A DNA stretch of 64,000 nt from Chloroflexota bacterium (GCA_020161265.1 JAIUOC010000009.1:124001-188000); one strand, 5' to 3'. Positions 2,530-47,592 are shown, numbered from the stretch's first letter. Notes: generated by a model from the letters alone, not told the origin. Numbers and translations are program-made.

Positions 2530-2574
2530 TCCCTCACCTCTTCTCCCACGGCAGCAGGCGCGGGGCTAGCGCTC

Positions 2575-4785: not shown

Positions 4786-4861
4786 TGATTCCTCCATTGA
4801 CAGCTTGCCGCTATAATAGCGCAAACTGACCAATAACTTAGCACCGAATAGGATTGATACT

Positions 4862-5599
4862 TTGGAATTATTGTATGGACGCAATGCTGTTTTAGAGGCG
4901 TTACGCGCCAATCGGCGCAAATTGGGACGTTTACTGATCGCCGATGGCATCAAAGAGGGCGAATCGATGCAGGCGATCAATACAATTGCCCGCGAACGCC
5001 GAATTCAAGTTGCTAAAGTGCAGCGTGGTGAGCTTGATAAACGCACTGCTGGGGCAAACCATCAAGGCATTGCCCTCGAATGCGGTGCCTATCCCTATGT
5101 CGAAGTTGACGATATTATTGAGCTAGCCCGTGAGCGTGGCGAACAGCCGCTGATCTTGATTTTCGACCATTTGCAAGACCCACAAAATATTGGCACACTG
5201 ATGCGTACCGCCGAAATTGTCGGCGCACATGGCATTATTTTCCCCGATCGACGCTCGGCCAGCATCACACCAGCGGTAATTAATGCTTCGGCGGGTGCAG
5301 TTGAGCATTTGTATGTGGCTCAAATTACCAATATTGCCCAAACTATCAAGCACCTGCAAGAGTACAATATTTGGGTGGCGGGAGTTGAAGATGATGAGCG
5401 GGCTGTCGATTTTGATAAGGCCAATTTGCGCGGAGCTTTAGCCTTGGTGATTGGCGCGGAAGGCCCAGGCTTGGCCCGCTTAACCCGCGAACGCTGCGAT
5501 TTGTTGGTGCGCTTGCCGATGCGCGGCAAAGTCGCCTCGCTCAACGCCGCCACTGCTGGCTCAATCATTTTGTATCATGCTTGGCGAGTGAGGGGCTAG
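4862..5599 (+). CDS. rlmB: 23S rRNA (guanosine-2'-O-)-methyltransferase RlmB-like (SpoU/TrmH family)
   Basis: The enzyme would methylate the 2'-OH of a 23S rRNA guanosine using SAM. The start MELLYGRNAVLEAL is the characteristic RlmB N-terminus, followed by a substrate-binding domain to about residue 75 and the knotted SpoU methyltransferase domain. Motif 1 is DPQNIGTLMRTAE, motif 2 VIGAEGPGLARL, and motif 3 LPMRGKVASLNAATA, so the full SAM-binding trefoil knot is present. Translation apparently begins with TTG at 4862, with AGGA nine bases upstream. The length of 245 residues is normal. It is divergent from the TauE-like gene and appears to stand alone. Confidence 0.88.
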   Translation: MELLYGRNAVLEALRANRRKLGRLLIADGIKEGESMQAINTIARERRIQVAKVQRGELDKRTAGANHQGIALECGAYPYVEVDDIIELARERGEQPLILIFDHLQDPQNIGTLMRTAEIVGAHGIIFPDRRSASITPAVINASAGAVEHLYVAQITNIAQTIKHLQEYNIWVAGVEDDERAVDFDKANLRGALALVIGAEGPGLARLTRERCDLLVRLPMRGKVASLNAATAGSIILYHAWRVRG

Positions 5600-5725
5600 C
5601 GGCTAGGGGTCAGGGGCTAGGGATCAGAGGCCAGGGTTGTGATTGCACTGAATCAAATCGAACTGCCCCCTCATCCCTGAATCCTGACCCCTTCGTGCTC
5701 TTCGTGTCCTTCGTGGATCAATCGC
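5600..5725. repeat. Intergenic repeat block with imperfect inverted arms
   Basis: The spacer after rlmB holds purine-rich units such as GGGGTCAGGGGCTAGGGATC and, about 30 bases later, the roughly complementary pyrimidine-rich run ending in ATCCTGACCCCTT, so a long imperfect hairpin is possible. It ends at 5691-5716 with a reverse-oriented copy of the CCACGAAG-type dispersed repeat found at several other intergenic sites in this window. No coding potential was seen. Confidence 0.6.
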
Positions 5726-5749
5726 TATACTACGCCCGTGGAGAACACC

Positions 5750-6427
5750 ATGCTACGCAACAACGAACTATGGATCGCGATTGCCATCGCGGTAACCTCA
5801 ACGATCATCGCGCGGTTGCCAGTGCTGCATTGGCTGGTTTATCCGTTTGAGCTGTTCAATACCTTTGTGCATGAGCTTGGCCATGGCTTTGCTTCATTAC
5901 TGACTGGCGGCAAACTCGATCGGCTTGAAGTGTATTCAAATGGCGAGGGCGTGGCCTGGACAGCTGGCGGCATTCGTTGGATTGTGGCCAGTGCTGGCTA
6001 TTTGAGCAGCGCCTTGGTTGGCGGCGCATTATTAATTCTTTCAGCACGGGGCATTAGCGCTGATCGCGTCACATTAATTATTGGAATTGCGCTGTTTGTG
6101 CTGTGTGGCTTGTTTGTTCGTAATATTTTTGGCATTATTGTTGGTATTTTGCTGGCGGGTGCATTCATTGCCGCTAGTTATAAATTGGCGTTGCACTGGA
6201 ACGAGTGGCTCTTGTTAGTTTTGGGCGTGCAAACCATCTTAAATGCGCTCGATAGCTTATGGGATTTACTGCGACTTTCATCCTACCGTCGCCATGTCAC
6301 CAGCGATGCCCTGATTATGCAACAAGCAACCGGAGTTCCAGCAATTTTATGGGCGTTGGTGTGGAGCGGCATCGCCCTCTTGATTTTGTGGCAGGCCATT
6401 CGATTTGCCTACTTCCGTGACATTTAG
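5750..6427 (+). CDS. M50B-like membrane metalloprotease homologue
   Basis: The protein has 225 residues and several membrane-spanning segments. HELGH lies at residues 41-45 and fits the HExxH zinc motif of M50/M50B peptidases, inside a short hydrophobic context followed by FASLLTGG. The size and layout resemble the M50B-like family, related to YugF/YwmB-type orphan proteins, more than the larger site-2 proteases. A second metal ligand was not identified with confidence. The ATG at 5750 is preferred over GTG at 5738 because GGAG lies six bases upstream. It sits alone between repeat-rich spacer and the acyl-CoA synthetase gene. The substrate is unknown. Confidence 0.72.
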   Translation: MLRNNELWIAIAIAVTSTIIARLPVLHWLVYPFELFNTFVHELGHGFASLLTGGKLDRLEVYSNGEGVAWTAGGIRWIVASAGYLSSALVGGALLILSARGISADRVTLIIGIALFVLCGLFVRNIFGIIVGILLAGAFIAASYKLALHWNEWLLLVLGVQTILNALDSLWDLLRLSSYRRHVTSDALIMQQATGVPAILWALVWSGIALLILWQAIRFAYFRDI

Positions 6428-6493
6428 CCCATTCAAGCGCCGCCAGATGTGATATGCTCTAGGGGTGATCGAAGTAACCCGGAGGCAATCGCT

Positions 6494-8587
6494 ATGCTGG
6501 AGGAGATTTTCGCTCCGCAATCGGTGGCCGTGGTGGGAGCATCTCCCGATCCATCACGTCTTGGTCACCGTGTCCTCAAAAATGTAATCGACAATGGCTA
6601 TAAAGGGCGAATCTACCCGATTCATCCTACTGCCAGTGCAGTTTTAGGCCAAACGGCCTACCCGTCGGTCGCTGCTGTTCCCGCTGATGTTGAATTGGCA
6701 GTTTTGGTTATTCCACCGCAGCATGTCTTAAATGTGGTCGAAGAATGCGGCCAAAAAGGTGTGCGCGGTTTAGTCGTGATCACCGCAGGATTCAAGGAAG
6801 TAGGCGGTGAAGGGGTTAAGCTTGAACATCAATTGGTAGAGATTGTGCAACGTTACGGCATGCGCATGGTCGGCCCCAATTGTCTTGGTGTGATTGATAC
6901 GGTCAGCGATTTGAATGCTTCGTTTGCAGCATTAATGCCCGCTGATGGTGAAATTGCCTTTATGTCGCAATCGGGCGCGGTTTGTACCGCCATTCTCGAT
7001 TGGAGCAAAGAGGCCAATATTGGTTTTTCGCGCTTCGTCAGCCTTGGCAATAAATCCGATGTTGATGAAGTGGCGCTGTTGCAGGCTTGGGGCAACGATC
7101 CCCAGAATAAAGTTATTTTGGCCTATTTGGAAGGCATTTCCGATGGTCCAGGCTTTATTCAGGCCGCCCGCGAAGTAACCAAACGCACCCCAGTTATCGC
7201 AATTAAAAGCGGTACGACGGCAGCAGGTACGCGGGCAATTTCCTCGCACACCGGCTCGTTGGCGGGCAGCGAGAGCGCCTACGAATCGGCATTTGGCCAA
7301 AGCGGGATCATTCGTGCTCGCACAATGGAGCAATTGTTTGATTTTGCCTTGGTGTTTGCCTACCAACCCTTGCTGACTGGCTCACGCATTGCGATTGTCA
7401 CCAATGCTGGCGGGCCTGGAATTATCGCCACCGATGCGATTGAGCGAGCTGGCTTGCAGATGGCCGAATTCACCCCCACAACCATCAGCCATTTACAAGC
7501 CAATTTACCAGCCACCGCCAATGTCTATAATCCAATCGATGTGATCGGCGATGCCAAAGCTGATCGCTATCGCATTGGGATTCAGGCAGCCTTGACCGAC
7601 CCGAATGTTGATGCGGTGTTGGTGCTGTTTACCCCACAAGCTGGCAGCGAAGCCGAAGCCACGGTTGAAGCCATGGCCGAGCTTTCAGCCAACCAAAGCA
7701 AACCAATTGTCGCCAGTTTTATGGGCGCATATAGCATCAAGCCTGCGCTCAAGCTGCTTAATCAATATAAAATCCCCAACTACGAGTTCCCTGAACGGGC
7801 AGTATCGGCCTTGGAAGCCATGTGGCAACATCGCCGCTGGCGTGAACAACCAGCCATGACCTATGCGCGTTTTGATGTTGATAAAGCGCATGTCCGCGAG
7901 TTATTTGCTCAAGTGCGCGAGGCTGGGCGGGTTGAACTTGGCGAGATCGAGGCGCGTGAAGTTATGGCGGCGTATGGCATGCGTTTGCCCGACAGCCGGC
8001 TTTCGCGTTCGCCTGAAGAAGCCGCCGAAATTGCCAAGGAAATTGGGTTTCCGGTGGTGATGAAAATTAGCTCGCCCGATATTCTGCACAAAAGCGATAT
8101 TGGCGGGGTGCGCGTGGGCATTGCCGACCCGCAAGCTGCCAGCGATAGCTACGAGCTAATCGCCTATCGCGCCCGTAAATTTAGCCCAAATGCGCGGATT
8201 TGGGGGGTTTTGGTGCAGGAAATGGCACGGAAAGGCCGCGAAGTGCTGGTTGGGGTCAGCCGTGATCCGCAATTTGGGGCGCTGATTGGCGTGGGCATGG
8301 GCGGTATTTATGTCGAAGTGCTCAAAGATGTTGTATTTCGACTTGCGCCCTTAAGCCGCGAAGAAGTGCGCGAACAACTGCGGGCAATTCGTTCGTTTCC
8401 ATTGTTGCAGGGCGTGCGTGGCGAGCAAACCGCCGATTTAGAAGCCGTTGAAGATATTGTGCTGCGGGTCAGCCAATTGGTTAGCGACTTCCCCGAAATC
8501 GTCGAAATGGATATTAATCCGTTGGTTGTCTACAACCGTGGCGAAGGCGTAATCGTGCTCGATGCCCGCATTATTCTGCAAGGATAG
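6494..8587 (+). CDS. Acyl-CoA/acetate-CoA ligase, ADP-forming (fused alpha-beta subunits)
   Basis: The 697-residue protein has the single-chain architecture of NDP-forming acyl-CoA synthetases. An N-terminal CoA-binding Rossmann domain starts SVAVVGASPDPSRLG, followed by succinyl-CoA-ligase-like flavodoxin domains with the active-site histidine motif SSHTGSLAGS. The C-terminal ATP-grasp domain contains GFPVVMKISSPDILHKSD and ends EMDINPLVVY. Such enzymes convert acetyl-CoA, ADP and phosphate to acetate, ATP and CoA, often in the ATP-forming direction. The ATG at 6494 has GGAGG eight bases upstream; a longer frame from 6449 lacks this. The next gene encodes a DRTGG/phosphotransacetylase-N-like protein, a pairing that supports a role in acetyl-CoA/acetate metabolism. 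Confidence 0.88.
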   Translation: MLEEIFAPQSVAVVGASPDPSRLGHRVLKNVIDNGYKGRIYPIHPTASAVLGQTAYPSVAAVPADVELAVLVIPPQHVLNVVEECGQKGVRGLVVITAGFKEVGGEGVKLEHQLVEIVQRYGMRMVGPNCLGVIDTVSDLNASFAALMPADGEIAFMSQSGAVCTAILDWSKEANIGFSRFVSLGNKSDVDEVALLQAWGNDPQNKVILAYLEGISDGPGFIQAAREVTKRTPVIAIKSGTTAAGTRAISSHTGSLAGSESAYESAFGQSGIIRARTMEQLFDFALVFAYQPLLTGSRIAIVTNAGGPGIIATDAIERAGLQMAEFTPTTISHLQANLPATANVYNPIDVIGDAKADRYRIGIQAALTDPNVDAVLVLFTPQAGSEAEATVEAMAELSANQSKPIVASFMGAYSIKPALKLLNQYKIPNYEFPERAVSALEAMWQHRRWREQPAMTYARFDVDKAHVRELFAQVREAGRVELGEIEAREVMAAYGMRLPDSRLSRSPEEAAEIAKEIGFPVVMKISSPDILHKSDIGGVRVGIADPQAASDSYELIAYRARKFSPNARIWGVLVQEMARKGREVLVGVSRDPQFGALIGVGMGGIYVEVLKDVVFRLAPLSREEVREQLRAIRSFPLLQGVRGEQTADLEAVEDIVLRVSQLVSDFPEIVEMDINPLVVYNRGEGVIVLDARIILQG

Positions 8588-8734
8588 ATTTGAAAGGATG
8601 AGGGATGAAGGATGAATTATGAAGAGGAATCAGTTGGTTTCTCACGAATTTTGGATGAATATAGTTTCTTTAAAATTCAGCCAATATTCATCCCTCATCC
8701 CTCATCCTTCATCCTTCGATAAAGGAGTTTCGCT
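8588..8734. repeat. Intergenic ATCCCTCATCC-type repeat with inverted arms
   Basis: A purine-rich arm made of GGATGAGGGATGAA-like units at about 8596-8616 is mirrored by a pyrimidine-rich arm of CATCCCTCATCC units at about 8687-8716, which would form a long hairpin in the transcript. The ribosome binding site of the next gene (AAAGGAG) directly follows. Similar units recur at about 15280, 15443 and 60790. No gene was seen in this spacer. Confidence 0.65.
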
Positions 8735-9796
8735 ATGGCAACGCTGTATGTTGCATCAACAGAATCATATGTTGGCAAGAGTGCAGTTTGTGCTGCCTTG
8801 TTGCGCCAACTCAAGGATCGCCAGATTGATGCTGGCTACATGAAGCCAGTCAGTGTTTCGGTAACCCACACGCCAGAAGGGGCATTCGATGAAGATGCTG
8901 CCTTTATTCGCGAGAGTTTCGGCCTGAGCGAACCATTGGAGCAGATTGCGCCAGTGCTTTTGCGCCGCACGACGATCGAAAGCATTTTGCGTGGCGAGCA
9001 GCACGATTGGGCTGGGGCGGTGCAACAAGCGTTCCAAGCAATCAGCAGCCAACATCAAGTGACGATCGTTGAAGGCACGAACAGTTGGGCCGAAGGCTCG
9101 CTTGTCGATCTAAGTGCTGATCGGGTGGCCGATTTGATCGATGCGCCCATGGTCTTGGTTTCGCGCTACCGCACTACGCTCACCGTCGATGCAATTTTGT
9201 CGGTGCAACGCTTCGTCGGCAAACGGCTCAAGGGCGTAATTCTTAACCAAATCGAAGAAACCCGCCTCGATTTTGTCCAATCGCATGTTGTGCCATTCCT
9301 TGAGCAGCATGGCATCGCGGTTTTGGGCTTGTTGCCGCAAGATAGTGCGCTCTCAGGCATTCCGGTTGAAGATTTGGTGGCTGAGCTTGGTGGCAATGTA
9401 ATTGGAGCCGATTTTGGCAAGGGCAAAATCATCGAATCGCTGATGATTGGGGCCATGGGAGCCGAAGCGGGCTTATCGCACTTCCGCCGTCGCGCCAACA
9501 AAGCCGTGATCACTGGCGGCGACCGCACCGATTTGCAACTGGCCGCCTTGGAAACCTCAACCAATGTCTTGGTATTGACGGGCAACTTCCGCCCACAACA
9601 ATCGGTGATCGATCGCGCCGAACAACGCAACGTGCCGATTATCACAATTGCTGATGATACCTTGACGGCGGTTGAGCGGATTGAAAATATGTTTGGGCAT
9701 ATTCGCTTGCATGAACGTACCAAACTCGAACGCTTCACCAAACTCATGGCTGAGCGCTGCGATTGGTCACGCTTGGATGCGATTTTGGGCTTGTAG
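8735..9796 (+). CDS. BioD-like P-loop and DRTGG domain protein (phosphotransacetylase N-terminal-like)
   Basis: The 353-residue protein starts with a dethiobiotin-synthetase-like P-loop domain (STESYVGKSAVCAALL near residues 7-22). It ends with a DRTGG domain (about 215-320, containing GGDRTDLQLAALETSTNVLVLTG). The same two domains form the N-terminal regulatory half of long phosphate acetyltransferases, but the catalytic PTA domain is absent here. Its position 147 bases after an ADP-forming acyl-CoA synthetase suggests it senses or regulates acetyl-CoA/acetate flux, which is inference. AAAGGAG precedes the ATG. A hairpin terminator lies just downstream. Confidence 0.82.
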   Translation: MATLYVASTESYVGKSAVCAALLRQLKDRQIDAGYMKPVSVSVTHTPEGAFDEDAAFIRESFGLSEPLEQIAPVLLRRTTIESILRGEQHDWAGAVQQAFQAISSQHQVTIVEGTNSWAEGSLVDLSADRVADLIDAPMVLVSRYRTTLTVDAILSVQRFVGKRLKGVILNQIEETRLDFVQSHVVPFLEQHGIAVLGLLPQDSALSGIPVEDLVAELGGNVIGADFGKGKIIESLMIGAMGAEAGLSHFRRRANKAVITGGDRTDLQLAALETSTNVLVLTGNFRPQQSVIDRAEQRNVPIITIADDTLTAVERIENMFGHIRLHERTKLERFTKLMAERCDWSRLDAILGL

Positions 9797-9812
9797 GTTC
9801 GTTTGAGCAGCA

Positions 9813-9848
9813 AAATCCCCGTGTTCAACTAAGAACACGGGGTTTTCT
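9813..9848. terminator. Rho-independent terminator
   Basis: A perfect 10-bp GC-rich stem (9817-9826 paired with 9833-9842) has a 6-base loop and is flanked by an A-run on the left and TTTT on the right. It can end the DRTGG gene on the plus strand and possibly the convergent exported-protein gene on the minus strand. Confidence 0.85.
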
Positions 9849-9876
9849 GTTTAGCCTTGAAGCAGAAGAATTGAGT

Positions 9877-12201
9877 TTAGCGATAGCGCCATTGTTCGTA
9901 GTGTTGGCCGACATTGCCCATCTCAACTTGCCAATCGGCGGGGTTGCTAGGCGTGTAGGTCAGCACGCGGCGCTCGAAGGCCTGTACCAACACAGTTTGC
10001 TCAACGCCACCAACATAGACTTTGGCCCAGTAGGCTTCGCTAATTGGGTAGCCCAAGGCAAAAACCCAATCCATTACTTGGCCGTTTTGGGTGCGACCAT
10101 TTTGGTTGACCAAGCCTTGGCGATTGACAAAATCCCAGAAGGCGCTAGGGATGTTGTGGCCAGTTTGTGGCACGTAATGCACCAACTTAGCTGCATCAGT
10201 TGCAGCGCCAGCATAAGCGCTCACTTTGCCACTTCGCGCTAATTGCTGATCGGCGAATTGGCCAGTGCGATCGCTAGTTGACCCCAACAAATTGCTAAAA
10301 CTGGCATAGGTTGGAGCTGAAGCATCGCCTAAATCGCCAGCAATATTAATTTGGGCGGGGCTACGCTGCACATAGTTGCTATCGCCAATTTGAATCTGGC
10401 CTTGAATCAATTCTTTAGCCAGCAAGCCGTTGGTCACAAACCATTGGCTTTGGCGGTCGGCCTCGAAATCGCTAATTTCCATGCGCGATTTATCGAAATA
10501 TTGCACTTGACGCAAACCACCAGGCGCTTGATCGTAAACCTCGGCGCGGGCTTGGCCACTGCTCGGCCCCCACAACCACGAACGCACGGCTTGGCCACTT
10601 GCCACCGGAGCATCGGCGTAGCTCCAAACCTTGTTAAAAGCTGGGTCGGCAAATTTGCCATTACTGCGCGTATCGAAGTTGGGCAATTTGTTGCTCGATG
10701 AAGTTGTTGGGGTGGGATAGGCCGAAGTTGGCGTGCGGGTTGCCGTGCCAGTCGCGGTTGCCGTGCGATTAGGATCGCTAGTTGGCGTAACATCATCTTC
10801 GAAGGTTGGCGTAATATCATCTTCAAAGGTTGCGGTTGGCTGCATGGTCGGTTCGCCCTGATTTGCATTGGTCTTGATCTGGAAGGTTAAGGTGTAATCG
10901 ATAAACTGATTGCCAACATCACCAACATTTTTGACCTGCACAAAATAGAAGCCATCGACGAATGGCGCGAAATCGATCCGCGAATCCAAGCCTGATTCAT
11001 AATCGTCGTTGAAATCGATAATCGTCGTGCCATCGCGATCAGCCAATACCATGACTGTATCAGCACCAACGCTAAGTTCCGAGGTGAATAATGAATAGAC
11101 TTTGCCAGCCTTGCCAAAGAATTTGACCCAATCGGCATCGCCGCGTGGGCACAACCGATGGTCAGGGTGAACTTCGCCAACCACAATCAACGGTGCAATT
11201 TCAGGCAACCCATCTGGCTCGTAGAGATCTTTACAAATTTCGGGGATGAGCGTTGGCGTGGGGCCGTAACTTTCGCTATTCAACACCACCGTATAGAGTG
11301 CATCAATAAACCCGCGTCCGGCGGAATCGCGCACCTTGATGTAATATTGGCCATTGGCAGGCGCACGCCACGATTGAATTCGTGGCTTGATATCGCTAGG
11401 GTCGTTGTTGCGCGGAAAGTCGTCGTTGAAGGCCAATTGATTGCCATTGCTATCATAGAGCGTCAACGAAAGATCCAGCCCATCGACCATTTGCGAGACA
11501 TCAATTGTATAAACTTTGCCCTCTAAACCGCCAAATAAGAGCCAATCTTCGTCGCCAACTGGACAAATCGCGTGGACTTGGGGCACATCAACTTCAATTC
11601 GGCGAGCTTGGCTACGGGTATTATTTGGCTCAAATCTATCATTCATCGTCCCACCATTTCCATCGCAAATTCGCCCTGGTGTACCAGTATTAGTTGCAGT
11701 TGGGGTAGCAGGAGTCGGCGTATTGGTGCGGGTTGGAGTTGCTGTTGGTGCAACGACATTAAGCCTTATATCAGCAGAACGAACAATATTTGAGACTGTA
11801 GATCGTGCTTGGATATTAAACGTAAACAGTCCCCTGGCTGCCGCAGGGATTTGGATATTAGCAACAAAACTCGTAGACTCTCCCGAAGTAATACCTGGTA
11901 AAGGAGATGTTGCAGGGTTGAATGTTATAGTCCATCCTCCAGGAGTATTAGGTTGAAGATATGTATAAGTTTCTTGGACAATGTTATCTGGTGCTGTTGA
12001 ATTATTACGAACCGTAAAGATTAACTGAAGTGTTTGACCTGCAACTGCATCTTGATCAACAACACTTGGGTCAATAAAAAAACTTGGGGTATTCGGTGCT
12101 TGCGGCTGGGCTTGGGGTGGGGTTACAGGCCGCGCCCATACACCGAGTGGCGTTAACAAGCCAGCTAGCACCACGAACATTAATAAACGCGCACGTTTCA
12201 T
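9877..12201 (-). CDS. Large exported protein with PPC domains and Chloroflexota-type C-terminal domain
   Basis: The 774-residue protein has an N-terminal signal peptide (hydrophobic MFVVLAGLLTPLGVWA). A NEW3/CARDB-like beta domain of about 120 residues follows, then a Thr/Pro linker. Two pre-peptidase C-terminal (PPC)-like domains come next, each with DRFEPN or DLYEPD starts and VDEDW/ADWV-type cores, then a second Thr-rich linker. The C-terminal domain of about 230 residues has FDTRSNGKFADPAFNKVW-, GYPISEAYWAKV- and VLVQAFERRVLTY-type motifs, which I associate with secreted Chloroflexota proteins of unknown function. No catalytic domain was seen, so a binding or surface role is likely. The ATG at 12201 follows GGAG with about nine bases between. 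The gene stands alone on its strand. Confidence 0.75.
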   Translation of the reverse strand: MKRARLLMFVVLAGLLTPLGVWARPVTPPQAQPQAPNTPSFFIDPSVVDQDAVAGQTLQLIFTVRNNSTAPDNIVQETYTYLQPNTPGGWTITFNPATSPLPGITSGESTSFVANIQIPAAARGLFTFNIQARSTVSNIVRSADIRLNVVAPTATPTRTNTPTPATPTATNTGTPGRICDGNGGTMNDRFEPNNTRSQARRIEVDVPQVHAICPVGDEDWLLFGGLEGKVYTIDVSQMVDGLDLSLTLYDSNGNQLAFNDDFPRNNDPSDIKPRIQSWRAPANGQYYIKVRDSAGRGFIDALYTVVLNSESYGPTPTLIPEICKDLYEPDGLPEIAPLIVVGEVHPDHRLCPRGDADWVKFFGKAGKVYSLFTSELSVGADTVMVLADRDGTTIIDFNDDYESGLDSRIDFAPFVDGFYFVQVKNVGDVGNQFIDYTLTFQIKTNANQGEPTMQPTATFEDDITPTFEDDVTPTSDPNRTATATGTATRTPTSAYPTPTTSSSNKLPNFDTRSNGKFADPAFNKVWSYADAPVASGQAVRSWLWGPSSGQARAEVYDQAPGGLRQVQYFDKSRMEISDFEADRQSQWFVTNGLLAKELIQGQIQIGDSNYVQRSPAQINIAGDLGDASAPTYASFSNLLGSTSDRTGQFADQQLARSGKVSAYAGAATDAAKLVHYVPQTGHNIPSAFWDFVNRQGLVNQNGRTQNGQVMDWVFALGYPISEAYWAKVYVGGVEQTVLVQAFERRVLTYTPSNPADWQVEMGNVGQHYEQWRYR

Positions 12202-37674: not shown

Positions 37675-38325
37675 ATGCGTTTAGGGTTGTTAGCCGATAT
37701 TCATGGTGATGGTGTCGGCTTTCAACAGGCCTTGGCTTGGTTTGAGTCTCAAGCGATTGAGCAAATCCTGTGTGCTGGCGATGTGGTTGATCGCGGGCCG
37801 GATGCTGATGCGATTGTTCAAGTGCTGATTGCTCGCTCAATTCCTTGTATCAAAGGCAACCACGAATTCACCTTGCTGCGCGAGCATAGCCGTTGGAGCC
37901 AAAGTAGCCAGCGCGAACGCCTCGCTAGTCGGGGCCGAATCGTCACCCAAGCCACTTTAGCGTATATTGCTGCGCTACCAACTAGCCTCCGTTTACAAGT
38001 GGAGCATCGCAGTTTGGTGCTAGCTCATGGTGCACCCTGGAGCGATGTCGTAGATATGTTGCCAGAGCGCCGCAACGTCAAATGGCAACGGCTGGTACGC
38101 GAACATCCCAATGATCAGATTATTGTGCTTGGGCATACCCATCGCCCGATGCATGTGCGCTGCGGCCATCTGACGGTGCTCAATCCAGGCTCGGTCTATG
38201 GCGTAACTATTCGCGATAGCCACACCTGCGCCATCTACGACACCACCAGCGACAACCTGACCCTCTACGATTTGCGCAGCCAGCAAACCCGTATTTGCTC
38301 TGTGGTTGAGGTTGAATTGAGCTAA
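37675..38325 (+). CDS. Calcineurin-like metallophosphoesterase
   Basis: The 216-residue protein shows the full metallophosphoesterase pattern: DIHGD near residue 7, GDVVDRGPDADA, KGNHEF, LAHGAPW and GHTHRPM. These supply the two metal sites. It is closest in style to the small YfcE/diadenosine-tetraphosphatase-like phosphatases, but the substrate cannot be read from sequence. Its ATG follows the upstream hydrolase stop directly. A dispersed repeat follows after 20 bases, marking the end of the unit. Confidence 0.85.
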   Translation: MRLGLLADIHGDGVGFQQALAWFESQAIEQILCAGDVVDRGPDADAIVQVLIARSIPCIKGNHEFTLLREHSRWSQSSQRERLASRGRIVTQATLAYIAALPTSLRLQVEHRSLVLAHGAPWSDVVDMLPERRNVKWQRLVREHPNDQIIVLGHTHRPMHVRCGHLTVLNPGSVYGVTIRDSHTCAIYDTTSDNLTLYDLRSQQTRICSVVEVELS

Positions 38326-38630: not shown

Positions 38631-39371
38631 ATGCAGCTTGAGCATTACCCCAGCCGAGAAACCACCATCGAACTCCCATCACTTGCGCTCCTTACGGCTC
38701 CAGACGATCAGCGCTCGATTGTTGGCATGGGTACAGTCTTGCGCAAGGTTGATGGCAGCCAAGCAATCATCGGCGTGATCGCGTTTGACCAGCTCTATTT
38801 AATTGTTGATAAAAAAGTTGTGCCCTTCATACCCACCTTGTCTATTCGCCACGAATCGGGAACATTTATGGGCAAGCTGAGCATCAACGCTGGCGCAACC
38901 AAGCTCATCCAAACGCGCTATTGGAAATCACGCCCAGCGATTGTGGCCGCTATCGATCCGGTTTACGATCAGATTGATGATACTGAACAGAACTTTTGCA
39001 GCTATCTAGCCTCCTGCTATGAAGACCTAAGTTGGCGAAAATGGGTGTATGAGCGCTATCAGCCAGCCAAAGAACCCATGAATAACACGCTGAATGAGGC
39101 CTTAGAATATTTATTGAGCCGACTATCGCCGCATACCCCACCAGTCTTTTTTGCCGAAATTATCGACCAACTCTGTTGGCTCGTCGATGGGCAGCGCGTA
39201 AGTCTGTATCAGATCATGCGCGACTGGCTCCATTCCGATGAGAAGGAGAAGGTAAAAATTGCCCTCACCACGAGCGAGGCGTTCTTCCTTGGATCAAATG
39301 CCGCCGATCAGGCAGTTGTCGCTCGAATTATTGAGCGCTGGCCCGACCTCGCACCGTTGTGTAGTAAATAG
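38631..39371 (+). CDS. Two-part island protein: unknown N-terminal domain fused to a small-family domain (copy A)
   Basis: The 246-residue protein has an unrecognised beta-rich N-terminal domain (about 1-145, with IVGMGTVLRKVDG and DQLYLIVDKKVVPF). It continues into a copy of the island's recurring helical domain (about 148-246). That domain shows LEYLLSRLSPHTPPVFFAE, KEKVKIAL and RWPDLAPLC. The domain begins with an internal Met (MNNTLNEAL) that looks like the start of the free-standing copies, suggesting fusion of two former genes. GGAG lies about ten bases upstream of the ATG. Five related genes follow within 4.5 kb. Function unknown. Confidence 0.75.
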   Translation: MQLEHYPSRETTIELPSLALLTAPDDQRSIVGMGTVLRKVDGSQAIIGVIAFDQLYLIVDKKVVPFIPTLSIRHESGTFMGKLSINAGATKLIQTRYWKSRPAIVAAIDPVYDQIDDTEQNFCSYLASCYEDLSWRKWVYERYQPAKEPMNNTLNEALEYLLSRLSPHTPPVFFAEIIDQLCWLVDGQRVSLYQIMRDWLHSDEKEKVKIALTTSEAFFLGSNAADQAVVARIIERWPDLAPLCSK

Positions 39372-39487
39372 CGTCAGTGGGAGCGCAATAAACGCTAGCA
39401 GTACTCCTAGCTAGCTAAATTTCCGAATTATGAGAAAAATAATGGCTAGGAGCAAGAGCCAGGGTAGGTAGCCAAAAAGGAGAGCTG

Positions 39488-39820
39488 ATGAGTATGACCA
39501 TGGATGCCGCGATTGACGCGCTATTTGACCACTTAGCTGCGCAAACACCAGTTGAACTTCTTGCTGAAATCCTTGACGACGTAGGCTGGCTGATTGATGA
39601 TCCGACCATGGATCTGCATCGGACGATGCGGGGCTGGCTGATTGGCGATGAGCTTAAAAAAGTCAAGGTCGCCTTGTCCATGCAATCAATGGCCTTGCTA
39701 GAATCGGATGCCGAGCGCCATGCTATCGCTGAACAGCTTGTGCGTCGTTGGCCCGAACTTGAGCCGCTGTGCCGTAGCTCGCCGCAACTACGGACGACAA
39801 CACTCTCCAACCATCGATAA
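39488..39820 (+). CDS. Small-family protein, copy B
   Basis: The 110-residue protein is mostly helical by pattern and the most divergent free-standing member. It keeps WLIDD, MRGWL, KKVKVAL, LLESDAE and RWPELEPLC, the family's conserved positions. AGGAG lies five bases before ATG 39488; ATG 39494 is an alternative. It is followed after 53 bases by the first APH-like kinase gene, and this small-gene-then-kinase order recurs with copy F. No known family was recognised. Confidence 0.72.
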   Translation: MSMTMDAAIDALFDHLAAQTPVELLAEILDDVGWLIDDPTMDLHRTMRGWLIGDELKKVKVALSMQSMALLESDAERHAIAEQLVRRWPELEPLCRSSPQLRTTTLSNHR

Positions 39821-39873
39821 CGACGCTGGTTTTCGCCGCGAATCATGCATCATGAGTGAAGGGAAATATATTA

Positions 39874-40917
39874 ATGGACGTGCTCGATACCGTCATTGCT
39901 AATGCAATTCAACAGTTTGATCTGATCGCTCCAGTTCAGGTGGTTGCCCAATTTCCCAGTGTCAATCATCAGTCCATCCAACTACGGGCGGCGAATGGCG
40001 ATTTTGTCATCAAGGTCTACGCCACCGATCAGGATGAAGCAACACGGCGCTATGAACACATGTTGGTGCAGTGGCTCTCATGGCGGCCAGCCTCGTTTAC
40101 AGTGCCTTTGCCGCTCAGGGGAAGAAGTATCGACTATTCGCACTATAACTATAATAGCGATCGTTTTTATAGCATAACTCCCTACATCGCGGGCGAAACA
40201 CCCGACTTTCGGGTCGGTACGGATGACCAGTATCATCCATTGATCCAGCAATGGGCTTATTCCATGGGCACAGCCCTTGGTGAATTGCAGACGATCCTGC
40301 AAGCCCGCCCCGCCCAGCAACGTCGTCCTTTGGCCCTGTTTCAATCGTTGCTCACCTACGCCCAACCGCGTTATGATCCGCTTCAACTCTCAGCTGCGCA
40401 GGTTGGCGGTTCGTCGGATGATGAAGCTCTGTGGACATGGTGGCGGATGGAAGCAACCAGCCTCATGGCATTTGTGACGAATGAGTATCCTAGCTTACCT
40501 CAGCAACTCTGCCATAACGATTTTGCTCCGTCCAACCTGCTTATGCGTGATGGACGAGTGGCAGCGATTCTCGATTTTGAATTTGCCTGCCCAGCGGCAC
40601 GAGCGCTCGATGTAGCCATGGCCTTGCGCATGATTATGCAACTCGATAGTAATCCGGCAAACCCGTGGGCGGTGGCTGCGCAGTTTTGCTGCGGCTATGC
40701 CGAATGGATCACACTGACCGCGCCGGAAATTGCTGCCATGCCGCAGTTGATTGGCCTGCGTACCGCAATTCCGGTAATTTGGGCCGTGAGCAAAACCGAG
40801 CGTCCAAGCCCAACCAGCTTAGTTCAGGCAATTCGCCGAATGCAGGTGAGCAAGGCATGGATGAGCCAGCATCACCCACAATTGATCGCACTGTTGCAGA
40901 CAGCGTTTGCTGCATGA
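39874..40917 (+). CDS. APH-fold kinase-like protein, paralogue 1
   Basis: The 347-residue protein has the aminoglycoside-phosphotransferase/type II homoserine-kinase fold. The nucleotide-binding strand GDFVIKVYA has Lys47. The catalytic loop reads CHNDFAPSNLL with His214, Asp216 and Asn221, and the metal-binding Asp234 lies in LDFEFAC. All key residues are present, so it is probably an active small-molecule or protein kinase. Residues 176-347 are identical to those of paralogue 2 at 43199. ATG 39874 is preferred over GTG 39856 (AAGGGA upstream). An antibiotic-resistance role is not indicated. The physiological substrate is unknown. Confidence 0.82.
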   Translation: MDVLDTVIANAIQQFDLIAPVQVVAQFPSVNHQSIQLRAANGDFVIKVYATDQDEATRRYEHMLVQWLSWRPASFTVPLPLRGRSIDYSHYNYNSDRFYSITPYIAGETPDFRVGTDDQYHPLIQQWAYSMGTALGELQTILQARPAQQRRPLALFQSLLTYAQPRYDPLQLSAAQVGGSSDDEALWTWWRMEATSLMAFVTNEYPSLPQQLCHNDFAPSNLLMRDGRVAAILDFEFACPAARALDVAMALRMIMQLDSNPANPWAVAAQFCCGYAEWITLTAPEIAAMPQLIGLRTAIPVIWAVSKTERPSPTSLVQAIRRMQVSKAWMSQHHPQLIALLQTAFAA

Positions 40918-40920
40918 ACG
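40399..40920 (+). repeat. 522-bp direct repeat, copy 1 (3' half of APH-like gene 1)
   Basis: By eye this segment is identical to 43718-44239 (offset 3319 bp). It ends three bases after the gene's stop codon, and flanking sequence on both sides diverges sharply. Confidence 0.9.
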
Positions 40921-40963
40921 GAGCGCTGGTTCTCGCTACGTGCTGCTGCAGAAGAAGATTTCA

Positions 40964-41287
40964 ATGCCTATAAGCGTCGATGATGCTCTTGCCTATCTGC
41001 TAGGACGACTCTCCGCGCACACCCCACCCGTCTTTTTTGCCGAAATACTCGAGCAGTTATCTTGGATAACCGATGACAATATGGTGAGTATGTATCGCAT
41101 CATGCACGATTGGCTCAACTCCGATGATAAGGAGAAGGTGAAAATTGCTCTGTCGATTACGGAAGTCTTGTTACTACGATCAGATGAAGAATATCATGCG
41201 ACCGTTACCTAGATTGTTGGCCGCTGGCCCGAACTTGAGCCAATGTGTTATAAATTTCAACAAGCGTGGGAGCGCAATAAACGATAA
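40964..41287 (+). pseudogene. Small-family gene copy C, interrupted by an in-frame TAG
   Basis: The reading frame starts MPISVDDALAYLLGRLSAHT and keeps WITDD, KEKVKIAL and LLLRSDEEYH. It is then cut by TAG at 41210-41212. In the same frame the rest of the family domain continues (IVGRWPELEPMC and beyond) to TAA at 41285-41287. Copy F has CAG (Gln) at the matching codon, so one C-to-T change can explain the stop. The truncated product would have 82 residues and lack the conserved C-terminal motif. The ribosome site is weak. It is probably a recent pseudogene. Confidence 0.75.
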
Positions 41288-41359
41288 TTATCCCCAAGTC
41301 TCGATTTAGGCCAGGTTACCCAATTGCTAGTGATAATTAAAGCTGATTGGAACAGCCAA

Positions 41360-41390
41360 GAACGATTTTCCATTAAATTGTGGCCACATC
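41360..41390 (+). promoter_or_regulatory. Conserved 31-bp upstream element, copy 1
   Basis: This block, which includes TTCCATTAAATTGTGGCCAC, recurs with three differences at 44235-44265. Each copy lies a short way before the start of an island gene (copy D here, the barrel protein there). It could be a promoter or operator, or just the scar of duplication. Confidence 0.5.
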
Positions 41391-41407
41391 AACATGCAGG
41401 AGTATGG

Positions 41408-41731
41408 ATGATTATGAGCATTGAAAAAGTTATGGAATATTTGTTTACTCGAATACCCAACTCTCTACCACCAGAGTTATTTGCTGGACTCTTGGAGCAA
41501 TTAGCATGGCTTATGGATGATAATGGAAAGGATATCTATCAGGTCATAGACGGTTGGCTCAACTCCGATGATAAGGAGAAGGTGAAAATTGCCCTTGCGA
41601 TTACTGATGTTTTGTTGCTTGAATCGGATGAAGCGTATCATACGACCGTCGCACGGATTGTTGAACGTTGGCCTGAACTCGAACCGATGTGCATCAAATT
41701 CCAGCAATTGTGGGAGCAAAATAAAAAATAA
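41408..41731 (+). CDS. Small-family protein, copy D
   Basis: The 107-residue predicted helical protein shows MEYLFTRIPNSLPPELFAG, WLMDD, IYQVIDGWL, KEKVKIAL, LLLESDEAYH and RWPELEPMC, the full family signature. ATG 41408 has AGGAG five bases upstream. Its DNA from about 41560 on is close to the broken copy C (shared CTCCGATGATAAGGAGAAGG). It lacks an adjacent kinase; the next plus-strand gene is 750 bases away. No similarity to a known family was recognised. Confidence 0.78.
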   Translation: MIMSIEKVMEYLFTRIPNSLPPELFAGLLEQLAWLMDDNGKDIYQVIDGWLNSDDKEKVKIALAITDVLLLESDEAYHTTVARIVERWPELEPMCIKFQQLWEQNKK

Positions 41732-41788
41732 TATTGCTAAAGCCATACTTGGTAACACAAGGTGCTCTTTTATTCAGAATTAAGTACC

Positions 41789-41828
41789 AGTGTAATCACC
41801 ACATCATCACAAAATTGGTGATTACACT
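41789..41828. promoter_or_regulatory. Perfect 12-bp inverted repeat (terminator or operator candidate)
   Basis: The arm AGTGTAATCACC (41789-41800) is complementary to 41817-41828 around a 16-base spacer. A T-run follows some 12 bases later on the plus strand. It may end the copy D transcript, or be an operator in this AT-rich spacer; neither is proven. Confidence 0.5.
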
Positions 41829-41910
41829 AAATCATGTATTTTTGAATCGTGCCTGAAAATTCAATCCACGTTCTTTATATAAATACTGATTAATAGGCAT
41901 AGATTGTGAT

Positions 41911-42279
41911 TTATGAAGCAAGTGGCATGATAAAAAACCAAACACCTAATACATAAACAGATAATATTATTACGCCAGCAAGTCCCCATCGATATCCACG
42001 ATTGAGTAAAGATCTGCTAAACACAAAGTAGTAGCAATCAATACCAATCAATACAGAAACAATTAGAACTAGCGCAATACAGGGTATTATTGCTATTGGG
42101 TAGATGCTATGAGATAAAATATTTATAAGGGAACCCAACCCAAATGCCTGATAAATGGGAATACTAGAATATATAATTGCGCCTGTAGGTAAACCAGCGA
42201 TGAAAAGCAATAAGATATTGCGCTTCAATAACTTCCAAATCGGTGTCTGATAGGTTGGAATGTGATAGGTTGGCTGCAT
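41911..42279 (-). CDS. Small integral membrane protein (unknown)
   Basis: The 122-residue protein has about three to four hydrophobic segments (near 22-40, 48-62, 64-88 and 98-118). It has a short polar N-terminus with repeated Pro-Thr-Tyr. AAGGGAG lies six bases before the ATG. It is the only minus-strand gene in the island and is visibly richer in A and T than the chromosome around it, which fits a foreign or fast-evolving origin. No family was recognised. It might be a transporter fragment or an immunity-type membrane protein, but nothing supports either. Confidence 0.65.
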   Translation of the reverse strand: MQPTYHIPTYQTPIWKLLKRNILLLFIAGLPTGAIIYSSIPIYQAFGLGSLINILSHSIYPIAIIPCIALVLIVSVLIGIDCYYFVFSRSLLNRGYRWGLAGVIILSVYVLGVWFFIMPLAS

Positions 42280-42482
42280 GATTAACTCCCTTCACGCGAT
42301 GAATATGCCTCACTTTAGCAATTGATCGCAATGATCGCTTGTATCCAAATGGCTATGAGTGGGTGCAAAAGAGTGACAAGCCAAGAGAATGAGAGTCGAA
42401 GCGTACCAAAGCATAAAAAGTGAGTGAACCAATTCCTGTTGGAGCTAGTATAGCAATTTGAATCTAGTCAGCAGGAGAACGT

Positions 42483-42842
42483 ATGACTACTACGCTTGAT
42501 GAGGTTTTAGAATACCTATTAAGTCGCCTATCCCCCTATACGCCGCCAAGCCTTTTTTCAGAAAAATTACAATGCCTTAGTTGGATTATGGATGATGATG
42601 GCTCGGATATCTATCGGGTTATGCGTGAATGGCTTAACGCCGATGAGATCGAAAAAGTCAAAGTTGCACTCTCGATCGAGGAAGTGCTTTTACTTACCTC
42701 TGATGAGGCCTATCAAACAACCGTCACGAGGATTGTTGGCCGCTGGCCGGAACTTGAGCCAATGTGTTATGAATTTCAACAAATATGGGAGGGTCATAAA
42801 AACTACTATAAGGAAGTGTCAAAAAATGAATATTACGATTGA
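42483..42842 (+). CDS. Small-family protein, copy E
   Basis: The 119-residue protein has the complete family domain: LEYLLSRLSPYTPPSLF, WIMDDDG, IYRVMREWL, IEKVKVAL, LLLTSDEAYQ and RWPELEPMC. A short charged tail (HKNYYKEVSKNEYYD) follows. ATG 42483 follows AGGAG with six bases spacing. Its end overlaps copy F by 17 bases in another frame, so the two are translationally coupled. Confidence 0.78.
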   Translation: MTTTLDEVLEYLLSRLSPYTPPSLFSEKLQCLSWIMDDDGSDIYRVMREWLNADEIEKVKVALSIEEVLLLTSDEAYQTTVTRIVGRWPELEPMCYEFQQIWEGHKNYYKEVSKNEYYD

Positions 42843-43158
42843 TCTGGCCATTGAATACCTCTTTATTAGGCTGACGAAAAAAGTCTCCCCAGAATATTTT
42901 GCCGCAGAAGTAGAAGCGTTAATCTGGCTAATGGATGCTCAGGGAGGAGCAGATATTTATCGGGTTATGCGTGAATGGCTCTACTCCGATGAGATCGAAA
43001 AAGTCAAAGCAGCACTTGCAATCTGCCAAGCTGCGCTGATTGACTCCGATGAAGCATGTCACGCGGCTGTTGCGCAGATTGTCGGTCGCTGGCCGGAACT
43101 TAAGCCAAACTGCATTGAATTTTTACAACTTCGCAATTTGCCGAACACGCCGGACTAA
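42826..43158 (+). CDS. Small-family protein, copy F
   Basis: The 110-residue member has IEYLFIRLTKKVSPEYFAAE, WLMDAQGG, IYRVMREWL, IEKVKAAL, LIDSDEACH and RWPELKPNC. A ribosome site (AAGGAAG) about nine bases before ATG 42826 lies inside copy E. It carries the Gln codon CAG at the position where copy C has TAG. The second APH-like gene follows after 40 bases, repeating the small-gene/kinase arrangement of copy B with paralogue 1. Confidence 0.75.
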   Translation: MNITIDLAIEYLFIRLTKKVSPEYFAAEVEALIWLMDAQGGADIYRVMREWLYSDEIEKVKAALAICQAALIDSDEACHAAVAQIVGRWPELKPNCIEFLQLRNLPNTPD

Positions 43159-43198: not shown

Positions 43199-44236
43199 AT
43201 GCACGATATTAATCCATTCGTTACTGCGGCAATTCGGGCATTTGATTTAATCGAGCCTGTTGAGGTGATTGCCCAGCTTGCAAGTACCAATAACCTTAAT
43301 CTACATCTTCGCGCAGCCAATGGCGATTTTGTGTTGGAATGCTATCCATATGAGCGTCAAAATTCGCTTTTCTATGAGCATCAGTTGATCATGTGGCTTG
43401 CCCGCCATCCTAGCTCCTTTGGCGTACCCGTACCAATGATCATGAGTCGTAGTATCTCATACCTAGGATCGACAGTGCAGGGATTATTCATATTGACCCC
43501 GTTTATTGCTGGCGAAACCCCAGAATTTCGGCTGCTAAACAACGGCCAGCAGCACCCATCCATCCAGCACTGGGCCTATGCCATGGGCACAGCACTTGGC
43601 GAATTGCAGACGCTGCTTCAAGCATGCCCCATGCGTGAGCGTCATCCCCATGCGCTGTTCCAGTCATTTCTCAACTATGCCCAACCACGCTATGATCCGC
43701 TTCAACTCTCAGTCGCTCAGGTTGGCGGTTCGTCGGATGATGAAGCTCTGTGGACATGGTGGCGGATGGAAGCAACCAGCCTCATGGCATTTGTGACGAA
43801 TGAGTATCCTAGCTTACCTCAGCAACTCTGCCATAACGATTTTGCTCCGTCCAACCTGCTTATGCGTGATGGACGAGTGGCAGCGATTCTCGATTTTGAA
43901 TTTGCCTGCCCAGCGGCACGAGCGCTCGATGTAGCCATGGCCTTGCGCATGATTATGCAACTCGATAGTAATCCGGCAAACCCGTGGGCGGTGGCTGCGC
44001 AGTTTTGCTGCGGCTATGCCGAATGGATCACACTGACCGCGCCGGAAATTGCTGCCATGCCGCAGTTGATTGGCCTGCGTACCGCAATTCCGGTAATTTG
44101 GGCCGTGAGCAAAACCGAGCGTCCAAGCCCAACCAGCTTAGTTCAGGCAATTCGCCGAATGCAGGTGAGCAAGGCATGGATGAGCCAGCATCACCCACAA
44201 TTGATCGCACTGTTGCAGACAGCGTTTGCTGCATGA
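43199..44236 (+). CDS. APH-fold kinase-like protein, paralogue 2 (ATP-site Lys replaced)
   Basis: The 345-residue protein is clearly paralogous to the gene at 39874. Residues 174-345 are identical to it, including CHNDFAPSNLL and LDFEFAC. The N-terminal half (1-173) is only moderately similar. At residue 47 the nucleotide-strand motif reads GDFVLECYP, with Glu where paralogue 1 and most APH-type kinases have Lys or Arg. It may therefore be a weak kinase or pseudokinase, although the catalytic loop is intact. ATG 43199 has GGAG ten bases upstream; a longer frame overlaps copy F and is unlikely. Confidence 0.8.
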   Translation: MHDINPFVTAAIRAFDLIEPVEVIAQLASTNNLNLHLRAANGDFVLECYPYERQNSLFYEHQLIMWLARHPSSFGVPVPMIMSRSISYLGSTVQGLFILTPFIAGETPEFRLLNNGQQHPSIQHWAYAMGTALGELQTLLQACPMRERHPHALFQSFLNYAQPRYDPLQLSVAQVGGSSDDEALWTWWRMEATSLMAFVTNEYPSLPQQLCHNDFAPSNLLMRDGRVAAILDFEFACPAARALDVAMALRMIMQLDSNPANPWAVAAQFCCGYAEWITLTAPEIAAMPQLIGLRTAIPVIWAVSKTERPSPTSLVQAIRRMQVSKAWMSQHHPQLIALLQTAFAA

Positions 44237-44239
44237 ACG
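43718..44239 (+). repeat. 522-bp direct repeat, copy 2 (3' half of APH-like gene 2)
   Basis: This is the partner of 40399-40920, with no difference noticed by eye over its whole length. The abrupt change to diverged sequence upstream and to a different spacer downstream points to recent conversion or unequal recombination. Confidence 0.9.
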
Positions 44240-44287: not shown

Positions 44288-45496
44288 ATGAACAATTTAG
44301 CCTTTGACCTCATCCATATTGAGCCTCGTTCTTCACAATATTGGCACGTTGGTGGACGAGCACTCACTGATATTTGTATCGGGGATATTCTCGAAATTCG
44401 CCTTCCCGACAAAACTTCCATGGCAAACAAAGGCTCTTTTGTGGTGATCGCGATTAGCGCGTATAACGTGAGCATGCCCAAACTCAGTTCTGGGGTGTCA
44501 GGAATGTTAACCCTTCAAGATAACTATGGTGATCTCCTCACCAAGGGGGCGAAGCTCGTGCGTGCCACCACAGAATCATCTCCGGATGATGAACAGTATA
44601 GGAGAATCATAAAAGCCATGGTGAGGATTCGGGTTGAAGGCGACTTACGAGCGGAAGTTCTTGCGTTCAAGCAATCGCTGGAGGCCCACGCCGAGAGTAT
44701 CCAGTTTCAGCCGATCACGGCGGTTGGAGAGCGGTTCGTGGCCTACGGTGCGGTGTTACGTCGTGCCACGCCATCGAACATTGAGCACTTTATCGCTATC
44801 CTGCGGCGCTTTAATGAGAAGGTTGATACGCTGTTGGGCTTATCCTTTGTCCAGCACATCAGGCGCGAGAACGAAGCCAAACGATGGGAAGGGCGCACCT
44901 ACCACCGTCGGAAGCGATCTAAATGGAAATTGTCCTTTATCCAGTCGCTAGTAAAACGTCGGAACGAAGCCAAAATACGAGCTGCATGTGCAGCCAACGA
45001 CCAGTATCTGTCCAATGCGATAGCTCTAGGACCCAGATCCGAAGCAACCGCTGCGTTTGTGCTGACCATGCGGTGCTTCCTCGACGATACTGAAGAATGT
45101 TCGCTGGAAAACCTTGCGCACTACTATCAGGATGCAACGATTGGCACCGAGCATGCCTACCTCTATCTTGCGAATCGAGACTTATTCGCTATTGCATTGA
45201 ATGGAGTTACGGAGCTGATTGATCGGGAGCAAGTCGTCGATCACGATGGAAACGTGATCGGCAGGATCGAAACGCCGCTCACCCAGCGGCAGGTGTTTGA
45301 TCTGTGGGTCTATGGGGGACTCTCACACGCCAACCGAACCAAAAAACAGCAGTTTGATGCGCTCTTTGGCGACCCCGTGACGCGGGCTATGCTCAGGCAG
45401 AGCTTTGTTGATTGGCTGGATGCGTATTGCGGTCTTTTGGACACACAGAGGAACATCAGCAGATCGATGATCCTGGAGTTGGAAAAGCATGGTTGA
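44288..45496 (+). CDS. Island protein with EF-Tu domain II-like N-terminal barrel and unknown C-terminal region
   Basis: The 402-residue protein has an N-terminal region (about 5-95) that reads like the beta-barrel of translation-factor domain II: GGRALTDICIGDILEI, then FVVIAISAYNVSMPKLSSG, then LTLQDNYGDLLTKGAKLVRA. No G domain is present. The remaining about 300 residues are mixed helical with a basic patch (RRKRSKWKLS) and were not recognised. GAGGGAG precedes ATG 44288; the earlier in-frame ATG at 44255 has no such site. It ends the island before the RNase Y gene. Function unknown. Confidence 0.68.
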   Translation: MNNLAFDLIHIEPRSSQYWHVGGRALTDICIGDILEIRLPDKTSMANKGSFVVIAISAYNVSMPKLSSGVSGMLTLQDNYGDLLTKGAKLVRATTESSPDDEQYRRIIKAMVRIRVEGDLRAEVLAFKQSLEAHAESIQFQPITAVGERFVAYGAVLRRATPSNIEHFIAILRRFNEKVDTLLGLSFVQHIRRENEAKRWEGRTYHRRKRSKWKLSFIQSLVKRRNEAKIRAACAANDQYLSNAIALGPRSEATAAFVLTMRCFLDDTEECSLENLAHYYQDATIGTEHAYLYLANRDLFAIALNGVTELIDREQVVDHDGNVIGRIETPLTQRQVFDLWVYGGLSHANRTKKQQFDALFGDPVTRAMLRQSFVDWLDAYCGLLDTQRNISRSMILELEKHG

Positions 45497-46062: not shown

Positions 46063-47592
46063 GTGGACTTTATCCTTCCAGCTCTGGCTTTACTCATTGG
46101 CCTAGCTGCAGGCGCAGGCGGTGCCTATGTTTGGTTAACGAAAAAATCTGGTGTAGCACTGGCCCAAGCTGAAGCAGCAGCACAACTACAATTAGAACAA
46201 GCCAAGACTGAGTACAAACAATTGCAATTAAAAGCCCGCGAAGAACAACAACAACTGCGGGAAGTTGGTGAAAACGAACTCCGCGAAGCCCGCTTACGCT
46301 TGCAAAAACAAGAAGAACGGGTCAATCGCAAAGAAGAAACTCTCGAACGTAAGCTCGACCAAACCGAAAAGCGCGATCGCCAGTTAGGCCAGCGCGAGCG
46401 AGCGGTCGAAAACTTACACAGCGAAGCCGAACGCCTACGCACAGCCCAACAAGCTGAGCTAGAGCGGGTCGCAGGTCTCACTAACGAACAAGCACGTGAA
46501 ATTATTCTCTCTCGTGTTGAACAAGAAACCCGTGCCGAGGCTGCTCGCCGCATCCACGAAATCGAAGCGGCAGCAAAGCTCGATGGCGATCGGATTGCAC
46601 GCAAAATCGTTGGGTTGGCGATCCAACGCTGTGCATCAGATTATGTCGCCGAAATTACTGTAAGCACGGTACAACTGCCCAGCGAGGAACTCAAGGGTCG
46701 GATTATCGGGCGCGAAGGGCGCAATATTCGCGCATTCGAGCAAATTACTGGTGTCGATATTATTGTCGATGATACGCCCGAAGCGGTTACACTCTCGTGC
46801 CACGACCCAGTACGTCGTGAAGTAGCCCGCTTAACCCTGAACCGATTGTTGAAAGATGGTCGGATTCACCCCGCCCGGATTGAGGAAGTCGCTGATAAAA
46901 CCCGCCAAGACCTTGAGCAAATAATCCGCGAAGAAGGCGAACGCGTGGCCTACGAAGCCAACGTCCAAGGCCTTCATCCAGATCTCTTGAAGATTCTGGG
47001 GCGGTTGAAATATCGTACTAGCTACGGCCAAAATGTCTTGCAGCATTCGTTAGAATGTGCCTTTTTGGCAGGAGCGATGGCAGCAGAATTGGGTGCCAAT
47101 GTGCAGGTTGCCAAGACCGCAGCGCTGCTCCATGATATTGGGAAAGCCATTGACCACGATGTACAAGGGCCGCACGCGTTAATCGGGGCTGATATTGCCC
47201 GACGGCTTGGCCGCAACGCGGCGGTAGTTCATGCAATTGCTGCCCATCATAACGATGAGGAACCTCAAACTGTTGAGGCTTTTCTTGTTCAAGCCGCCGA
47301 TGCCATCTCTGGTGGTCGCCCAGGCGCTCGCCGCGAGACCATCGACTTGTATATTAAGCGGCTCGAAGCTCTTGAACATGTCGCCACATCGTTTCCTGGT
47401 GTTCAACGGGCATTCGCAATTCAAGCCGGTCGGGAAGTACGGGTTATGGTGCAACCCGATGCGCTTGATGATCTTGAAAGTATCCATTTGGCCCGCGAAG
47501 TGGCCAAAAAGATCGAGAGTACCCTGCAATATCCAGGTCAAATCAAAGTTACCGTCATCCGCGAAACCCGTGCGGTTGATTATGCACGGTAA
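46063..47592 (+). CDS. rny: Ribonuclease Y
   Basis: This is a membrane-anchored endoribonuclease that starts mRNA decay. It has an N-terminal membrane segment (about residues 4-25) and a long charged coiled coil (about 30-185). A KH domain near 205-265 contains [19 protein letters not shown], and an HD domain near 325-430 has catalytic His357-Asp358 in LLHDIGKA. The length of 509 residues matches the family. Translation starts with GTG 46063 after AGGAGG. The next gene is spoVS, an arrangement also known near rny in Bacillus. Confidence 0.95.

Follow-up and report, generated by a model that had tools for sequence, protein, structure and literature searches.

A strain-variable array of small acidic proteins in Herpetosiphon, possibly a polyimmunity-type locus formed by a new helical family

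Polyimmunity loci are characterized by short gaps, a single orientation, no intervening toxin genes, and variation among strains; a genome usually has one such locus, in which domain fusions occur and beside which recombinase or mobile genes are found (Zhang et al., 2012, PMC3482391). That study, which treated HEAT and barstar among the immunity types, reported extended loci only in Proteobacteria, Bacteroidetes, Firmicutes, and Actinobacteria. Here we analyze an island in a Herpetosiphon genome (6.0-Mb assembly), located in a stretch of 64,000 nucleotides (G000:C9:124001-188000, hereafter the window), where six copies of one acidic domain of ~100 aa, predicted to be all-helical, lie at 39078-43158. 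Herpetosiphon is a filamentous soil bacterium that preys on other bacteria. The most probable of the explanations considered is that the array is a locus of polyimmunity type whose repeated genes form a new helical family, a reading to which we assign a probability of about 0.45. Under this reading, the paralogous small acidic helical inhibitors would be kept as a reservoir, each copy would bind and neutralize a domain of an RHS/YD or similar polymorphic toxin that kin or rival cells deliver, and the APH-fold kinase found after copies B and F would be part of the module. Because no cognate toxin was found, the immunity function is one that we infer.

The six copies, A to F, are clearly paralogous, as had been proposed in an earlier model-made reading of the window (hereafter the sequence-only reading). 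A search of the host assembly with copy F as the query retrieved the other five at E-values of 5e-20 to 2.5e-30, and nothing else convincing was found in that genome. In an alignment of 19 copies, the invariant columns include W34, D37, W50, K58, A62, L63, and S73, and hardly any variation is seen in the RWPEL...C tail; all copies are acidic, with isoelectric points of 4.4-5.5. The AlphaFold2 model of copy E, obtained with window, H. aurantiacus, and H. geysericola copies, has six helices at a low-confidence predicted local distance difference test score (pLDDT) of 67. Foldseek returned no match to this model below E 4, and the best VIA-align hit (Z 4.7 over 53 residues) is uninformative for a helical protein. 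No copy had a match above chance level in Pfam, NCBIfam, PHROGs, or PADLOC, and no PDB chain matched the array profile below E 0.37. Judged from sequence comparison, the array domain is a new protein family, and its failure to be recognized in the sequence-only reading is in line with the lack of a match in every library tried.

Several candidate identities were considered, of which Tsi6 was dropped. One of 21 copies weakly matched the Tsi6 immunity family (PF18660) over its first helices (E 0.17), at 12.5 bits against a Pfam gathering cut-off of 26.9, while the others gave no match; there was no genome-level Tsi6 match in Herpetosiphon and no Tsi6 chain among the PDB matches of the array profile at E<=10. 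A relationship with HEAT repeats was not upheld by any Pfam HEAT match or by a profile comparison with a HEAT part to which the domain is fused in one strain (probability 0.5%). None of the 21 members matched a Pfam effector-associated domain (EAD) model at E<=1, and fusion to an effector was not seen.

In a profile search of 400 Chloroflexota genomes, the array family was found only in six Herpetosiphon genomes, together with weak matches to a divergent sister subfamily in the same six-genome result. The same-genus relatives of the window genome (G000) include H. aurantiacus DSM 785 (G001) and H. geysericola (G004). All six genomes examined carry array copies, two to six each, mostly in one variable island before the RNase Y gene; five genomes have a single array locus and G003 has two. 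One peptide-pattern scan of GTDB contigs returned two Herpetosiphon records only, and viral contigs and plasmids contained no relatives of the domain. A match in G031 (E 0.008) aligns within a RecQ-like helicase frame and was treated as chance.

The ratios of nonsynonymous to synonymous divergence (dN/dS) between orthologous copies are 0.10-0.43, which indicates purifying selection, and the copies are therefore functional. The array orthologs share 66-93% identity (93% for the B ortholog in H. aurantiacus and 88% for the F ortholog in H. geysericola), compared with 99% for the flanking RNase Y and 97% for a neighboring hydrolase. Across species, A groups with G3_a, B with G1_c, E with G4_b, and F with G4_c, while the pairwise synonymous divergence (dS) among the window paralogs is mostly 1 to 2 or saturated. 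Since dS is high and A, B, E, and F have orthologs in other species, the array represents an old, inherited, genus-wide set that has been reshuffled, and not a recent local amplification. Copies C and D, thought to share long runs of DNA, have a single longer exact run of 39 nt and an overall nucleotide identity of 69%; the striking DNA identity in the island lies in the kinase genes instead, where it extends over 522 bp. Recombination within genes is evident from the fusion copy of H. aurantiacus, which is A-like over its first ~150 nt and E-like thereafter. Decay is frequent: copy C of the window carries a nonsense codon, the G001 kinase is interrupted, the N-domain in G005 is truncated, and the HEAT fusion of G004 is split. 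The family is thus fast-evolving, recombining, and selectively constrained, and resides in a strain-variable island.

The window island is bounded by a metallophosphatase gene (37675-38325) and the RNase Y gene (46063-47592), and its gene order is A-B-kinase 1-C-D-(reverse membrane gene)-E-F-kinase 2-402-aa gene, an arrangement in which the alternation of copies and kinases described at first is only loose. The fusion gene A (38631-39371, + strand) consists of a 149-aa N-terminal domain (38631-39077) followed by the array domain (39078-39368), whose span had been placed at 39225-39371. Copy B (39488-39820, +, 110 aa) lies immediately 5' of kinase 1 (39874-40917, +, 347 aa). Copy C (40964-41287, +) is indeed a nonsense copy, as had been noticed: its frame (40964-41212) ends at a TAG at codon 83 (41210-41212), and the homologous frame runs on to 41287. 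It is followed by copy D (41408-41731, +, 107 aa) and by a 122-aa small membrane protein gene on the opposite strand (41911-42279, -), which lies between D and E and has a homolog in the H. geysericola island. Copy E (42483-42842, +, 119 aa) overlaps copy F (42826-43158, +, 110 aa) by 17 nt, and F ends 40 bp 5' of kinase 2 (43199-44236, +, 345 aa). The 402-aa gene (44288-45496, +) is the last gene of the island in most strains.

The intergenic gaps of the array range from -17 to 120 bp, all genes but the reverse membrane gene are on the + strand, and the Pfam and NCBIfam searches of the window proteins revealed no toxin-like gene from A to the 402-aa gene. The island resembles the polyimmunity loci of Zhang et al. 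(2012, PMC3482391) in orientation, gap length, the lack of a toxin gene between copies, strain variation, approximately one locus per genome, and domain fusions. Mobile neighbors are clear at one G003 locus. The immunity-type neighbors are barstar and HEAT proteins, and the only member of a known immunity family is a barstar-family gene in two strains. The island differs from the described loci in that the array family is not among the described immunity families, a kinase is interspersed, and the host belongs to the phylum Chloroflexota. The orphan immunity arrays of the Vibrio cholerae type VI secretion system (PMC5361080) are likewise arrays of immunity-like genes with a mosaic history at one strain-variable locus. 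However, they adjoin an effector and a secretion cluster and their copies match known effector-immunity pairs, neither of which is seen in the window.

Each of the six Herpetosiphon genomes has its own combination of copy number, gene order, and companions, mostly at a single chromosomal site. The placement between metallophosphatase and RNase Y is shared by the window strain, G001, locus C2 of G003, and G005. The G002 contig does not extend to the RNase Y side, and H. geysericola retains the RNase Y side with different genes (glgC-like) on the opposite side. The second G003 locus (C42) lies among transposon genes. H. aurantiacus has two fusions of the array domain, one with a HEAT-repeat protein (369-aa frame) and one, in another copy, with the N-domain, and a barstar-family gene occurs in the same island in G002 and G004 (PF01337, E 2e-10 and 4e-11). 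Elsewhere in H. geysericola (L101, G004:C34:130000-147000, positions 3-751), a ribonuclease (PF00545, 4e-24) adjoins a barstar (PF01337, 3e-24), and a stand-alone N-domain of the 402-aa protein lies 7 kb from this pair. A group II intron maturase gene is located between the island kinase and the 402-aa gene of H. aurantiacus (L024, 10246-11937).

Both kinases of the window belong to the APH phosphotransferase family (PF01636, E 7.6e-27 for kinase 1; 95 and 96.7 bits for kinases 1 and 2 against a cut-off of 23.2) and keep the catalytic motifs HNDxxPxN (HNDFAPSN) and DFE, but score far below the cut-offs of all named APH and homoserine-kinase models in NCBIfam. The two proteins are 53% identical in the N-half and 99% in the C-half, and the genes are exactly identical over 522 bp (40399-40920 and 43718-44239), a run that represents a recent gene-conversion tract. 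In six of seven cases, a kinase gene of the genus lies immediately after an array copy, in the same orientation and at ~40-75 bp, and the seventh directly precedes two copies; the island kinase of H. aurantiacus (L024, 8538-9578) carries an in-frame stop. The identity of the N-halves tracks the type of the preceding copy (82% for F-type, 64-93% for B-type, 48-65% across types), while the C-halves are homogenized within the window genome. This tracking could reflect functional pairing, or mere linkage with conversion tracts that end inside the kinase gene.

The 149-aa N-domain was found only in Herpetosiphon, where it also stands alone in H. geysericola (L028:2729-3172); its AlphaFold2 model had a pLDDT of ~30 and was not used. 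The 402-aa protein has no family in Pfam or NCBIfam, and its relatives are confined to Herpetosiphon apart from one weak relative of its C-domain. A relationship between the N-domain and the 402-aa protein was considered and dropped after a negative profile comparison. The distant C-domain relative (L102, G123:C1:1160000-1175000, positions 6917-10917) lies near a SMODS nucleotidyltransferase gene (PF18144, E 5.7e-49), a proximity that hints at a connection to cyclic-nucleotide defense.

With a widened profile and a sister-only profile, members of the sister subfamily were detected at other loci in five of the six Herpetosiphon genomes, the exception being the window genome, and one split-frame, broken relative was detected outside the genus in another family of the same order. 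In G002, genes for patatin and NACHT/FGE-sulfatase proteins (L041, G002:C46, 2550-6351) lie ~1 kb from a sister-subfamily gene, and both kinds of protein carry an EAD7 domain. In G003 (L053, G003:C29:26000-42000, positions 1439-7660), a 1454-aa secreted-looking VWA/TSP3 protein, the C-terminal end of which resembles a PD-(D/E)xK nuclease toxin, is followed by a 229-aa gene and an apparent short stretch of CRISPR repeats; a gene of the sister subfamily lies 1.9 kb downstream.

Herpetosiphon carries many RHS-type giants, and each of the six genomes has several RHS loci. In G005, an RHS gene of 2267 aa, in which ~250 aa that match no family come after an Rhs core, lies inside the island, between the metallophosphatase gene and the array, and ends 2.1 kb upstream of the first copy. 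The array as the direct immunity gene of this toxin was not adopted, because an apparent transposase or insertion sequence (IS) remnant and a membrane open reading frame (ORF) intervene, and because the C-terminal region of the RHS protein has no relative in the other loci compared; a truncated N-domain also lies between the two. At G003:C42, an RHS/teneurin-like gene that is 83% identical to a G001 RHS gene starts ~5 kb from two copies. In L049, L048, and L026, RHS/teneurin-like genes (3104, 3630, and >1837 aa) are each preceded by a resolvase gene and a PIN-domain-like gene, and the set looks like a recurring mobile module in Herpetosiphon.

A number of observations weigh against an immunity role of the array. 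None of the copies lies immediately after a toxin gene, those of the G005 island included. The RHS gene at G003:C42 belongs to the resolvase-PIN-RHS module that is also present elsewhere, so its nearness could be accidental, and RHS genes are missing from the island and its immediate surroundings in four of the six genomes, the nearest in H. aurantiacus being 18 kb off. The regular pairing with a catalytically intact kinase is atypical of immunity loci. Neither the N-domain nor the 402-aa gene has known immunity relatives, and the neighbors of the sister subfamily (leucine-rich repeat (LRR) genes in G001 and G005, a 617-aa gene in G002 and G003, and also MarR) are mostly unrelated genes. The resemblance to immunity-type arrays suggested by the sequence-only reading thus gains from fusion, decay, and strain-to-strain variation and loses from the lack of a toxin directly next to a copy; the recurrent association that it called for is present in part, in the form of six of seven kinases following a copy, barstar and HEAT genes in the island, and RHS in one genome, but not in that of toxin adjacency.

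The same observations were considered under other explanations. The small helical protein may instead act specifically with the APH-fold kinase, as its partner or its regulator, with B plus kinase 1 and F plus kinase 2 forming two-gene modules that would phosphorylate a small molecule, e.g., in antibiotic inactivation, and with the other copies as kinase-less partners. The position of a copy directly before six of the seven kinases, with two copies directly after the seventh, and the co-variation of the kinase N-half with the preceding copy type, with catalytic motifs kept, speak for this explanation. However, linkage alone accounts for the co-variation, provided that conversion tracts stop within the kinase gene. 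There are also more copies than kinases, G003:C2 has a copy with no kinase, and no array copy lies beside the nearest kinase from outside the genus (G012); we consider this explanation unlikely, though the strongest of the alternatives. Fainter still is a reading in which the locus would be a two-part defense or competition module whose variable helical family partners the APH-fold kinase, the N-half co-diversifying with its partner and the C-half being homogenized by gene conversion; of all the explanations, we give this one the least weight.

Fusion of the domain to differing partners (HEAT and the N-domain) is also what would be expected of an adaptor of intracellular, e.g., anti-phage, conflict systems, comparable to the effector-associated domains common to variable effector genes in multicellular bacteria. 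The location of sister genes near LRR genes, the 617-aa gene, and the EAD7-bearing patatin and NACHT proteins, and that of the 402-aa C-domain relative beside a SMODS synthetase, are consistent with such a role. It is nevertheless improbable, as no Pfam EAD or PADLOC model matches the copies, the island encodes no protease, nuclease, or NTPase effector, and tandem free-standing adaptors would be an unusual arrangement. It is equally improbable that the genes have nothing to do with conflict and either form a lineage-specific expansion that serves regulation or housekeeping or persist mainly through recombination in an unstable region. Among the genomes searched, the family is confined to Herpetosiphon except for the one split relative of the same order, no function or fold could be assigned, and several copies have decayed, all of which fit this view; purifying selection, strain-variable companions of immunity type, and a divergence far above that of the flanking genes argue against it.

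No description of the immunity repertoire of Herpetosiphon was found in the literature searched. If the array is an immunity array, it would add a new helical inhibitor family and bring extended polyimmunity loci to Chloroflexota, and the kinase that recurs as a partner would extend the polyimmunity scheme by an unexplained component. With six genomes and mostly one site, the island is a compact natural experiment on the recombination and decay of a reservoir.

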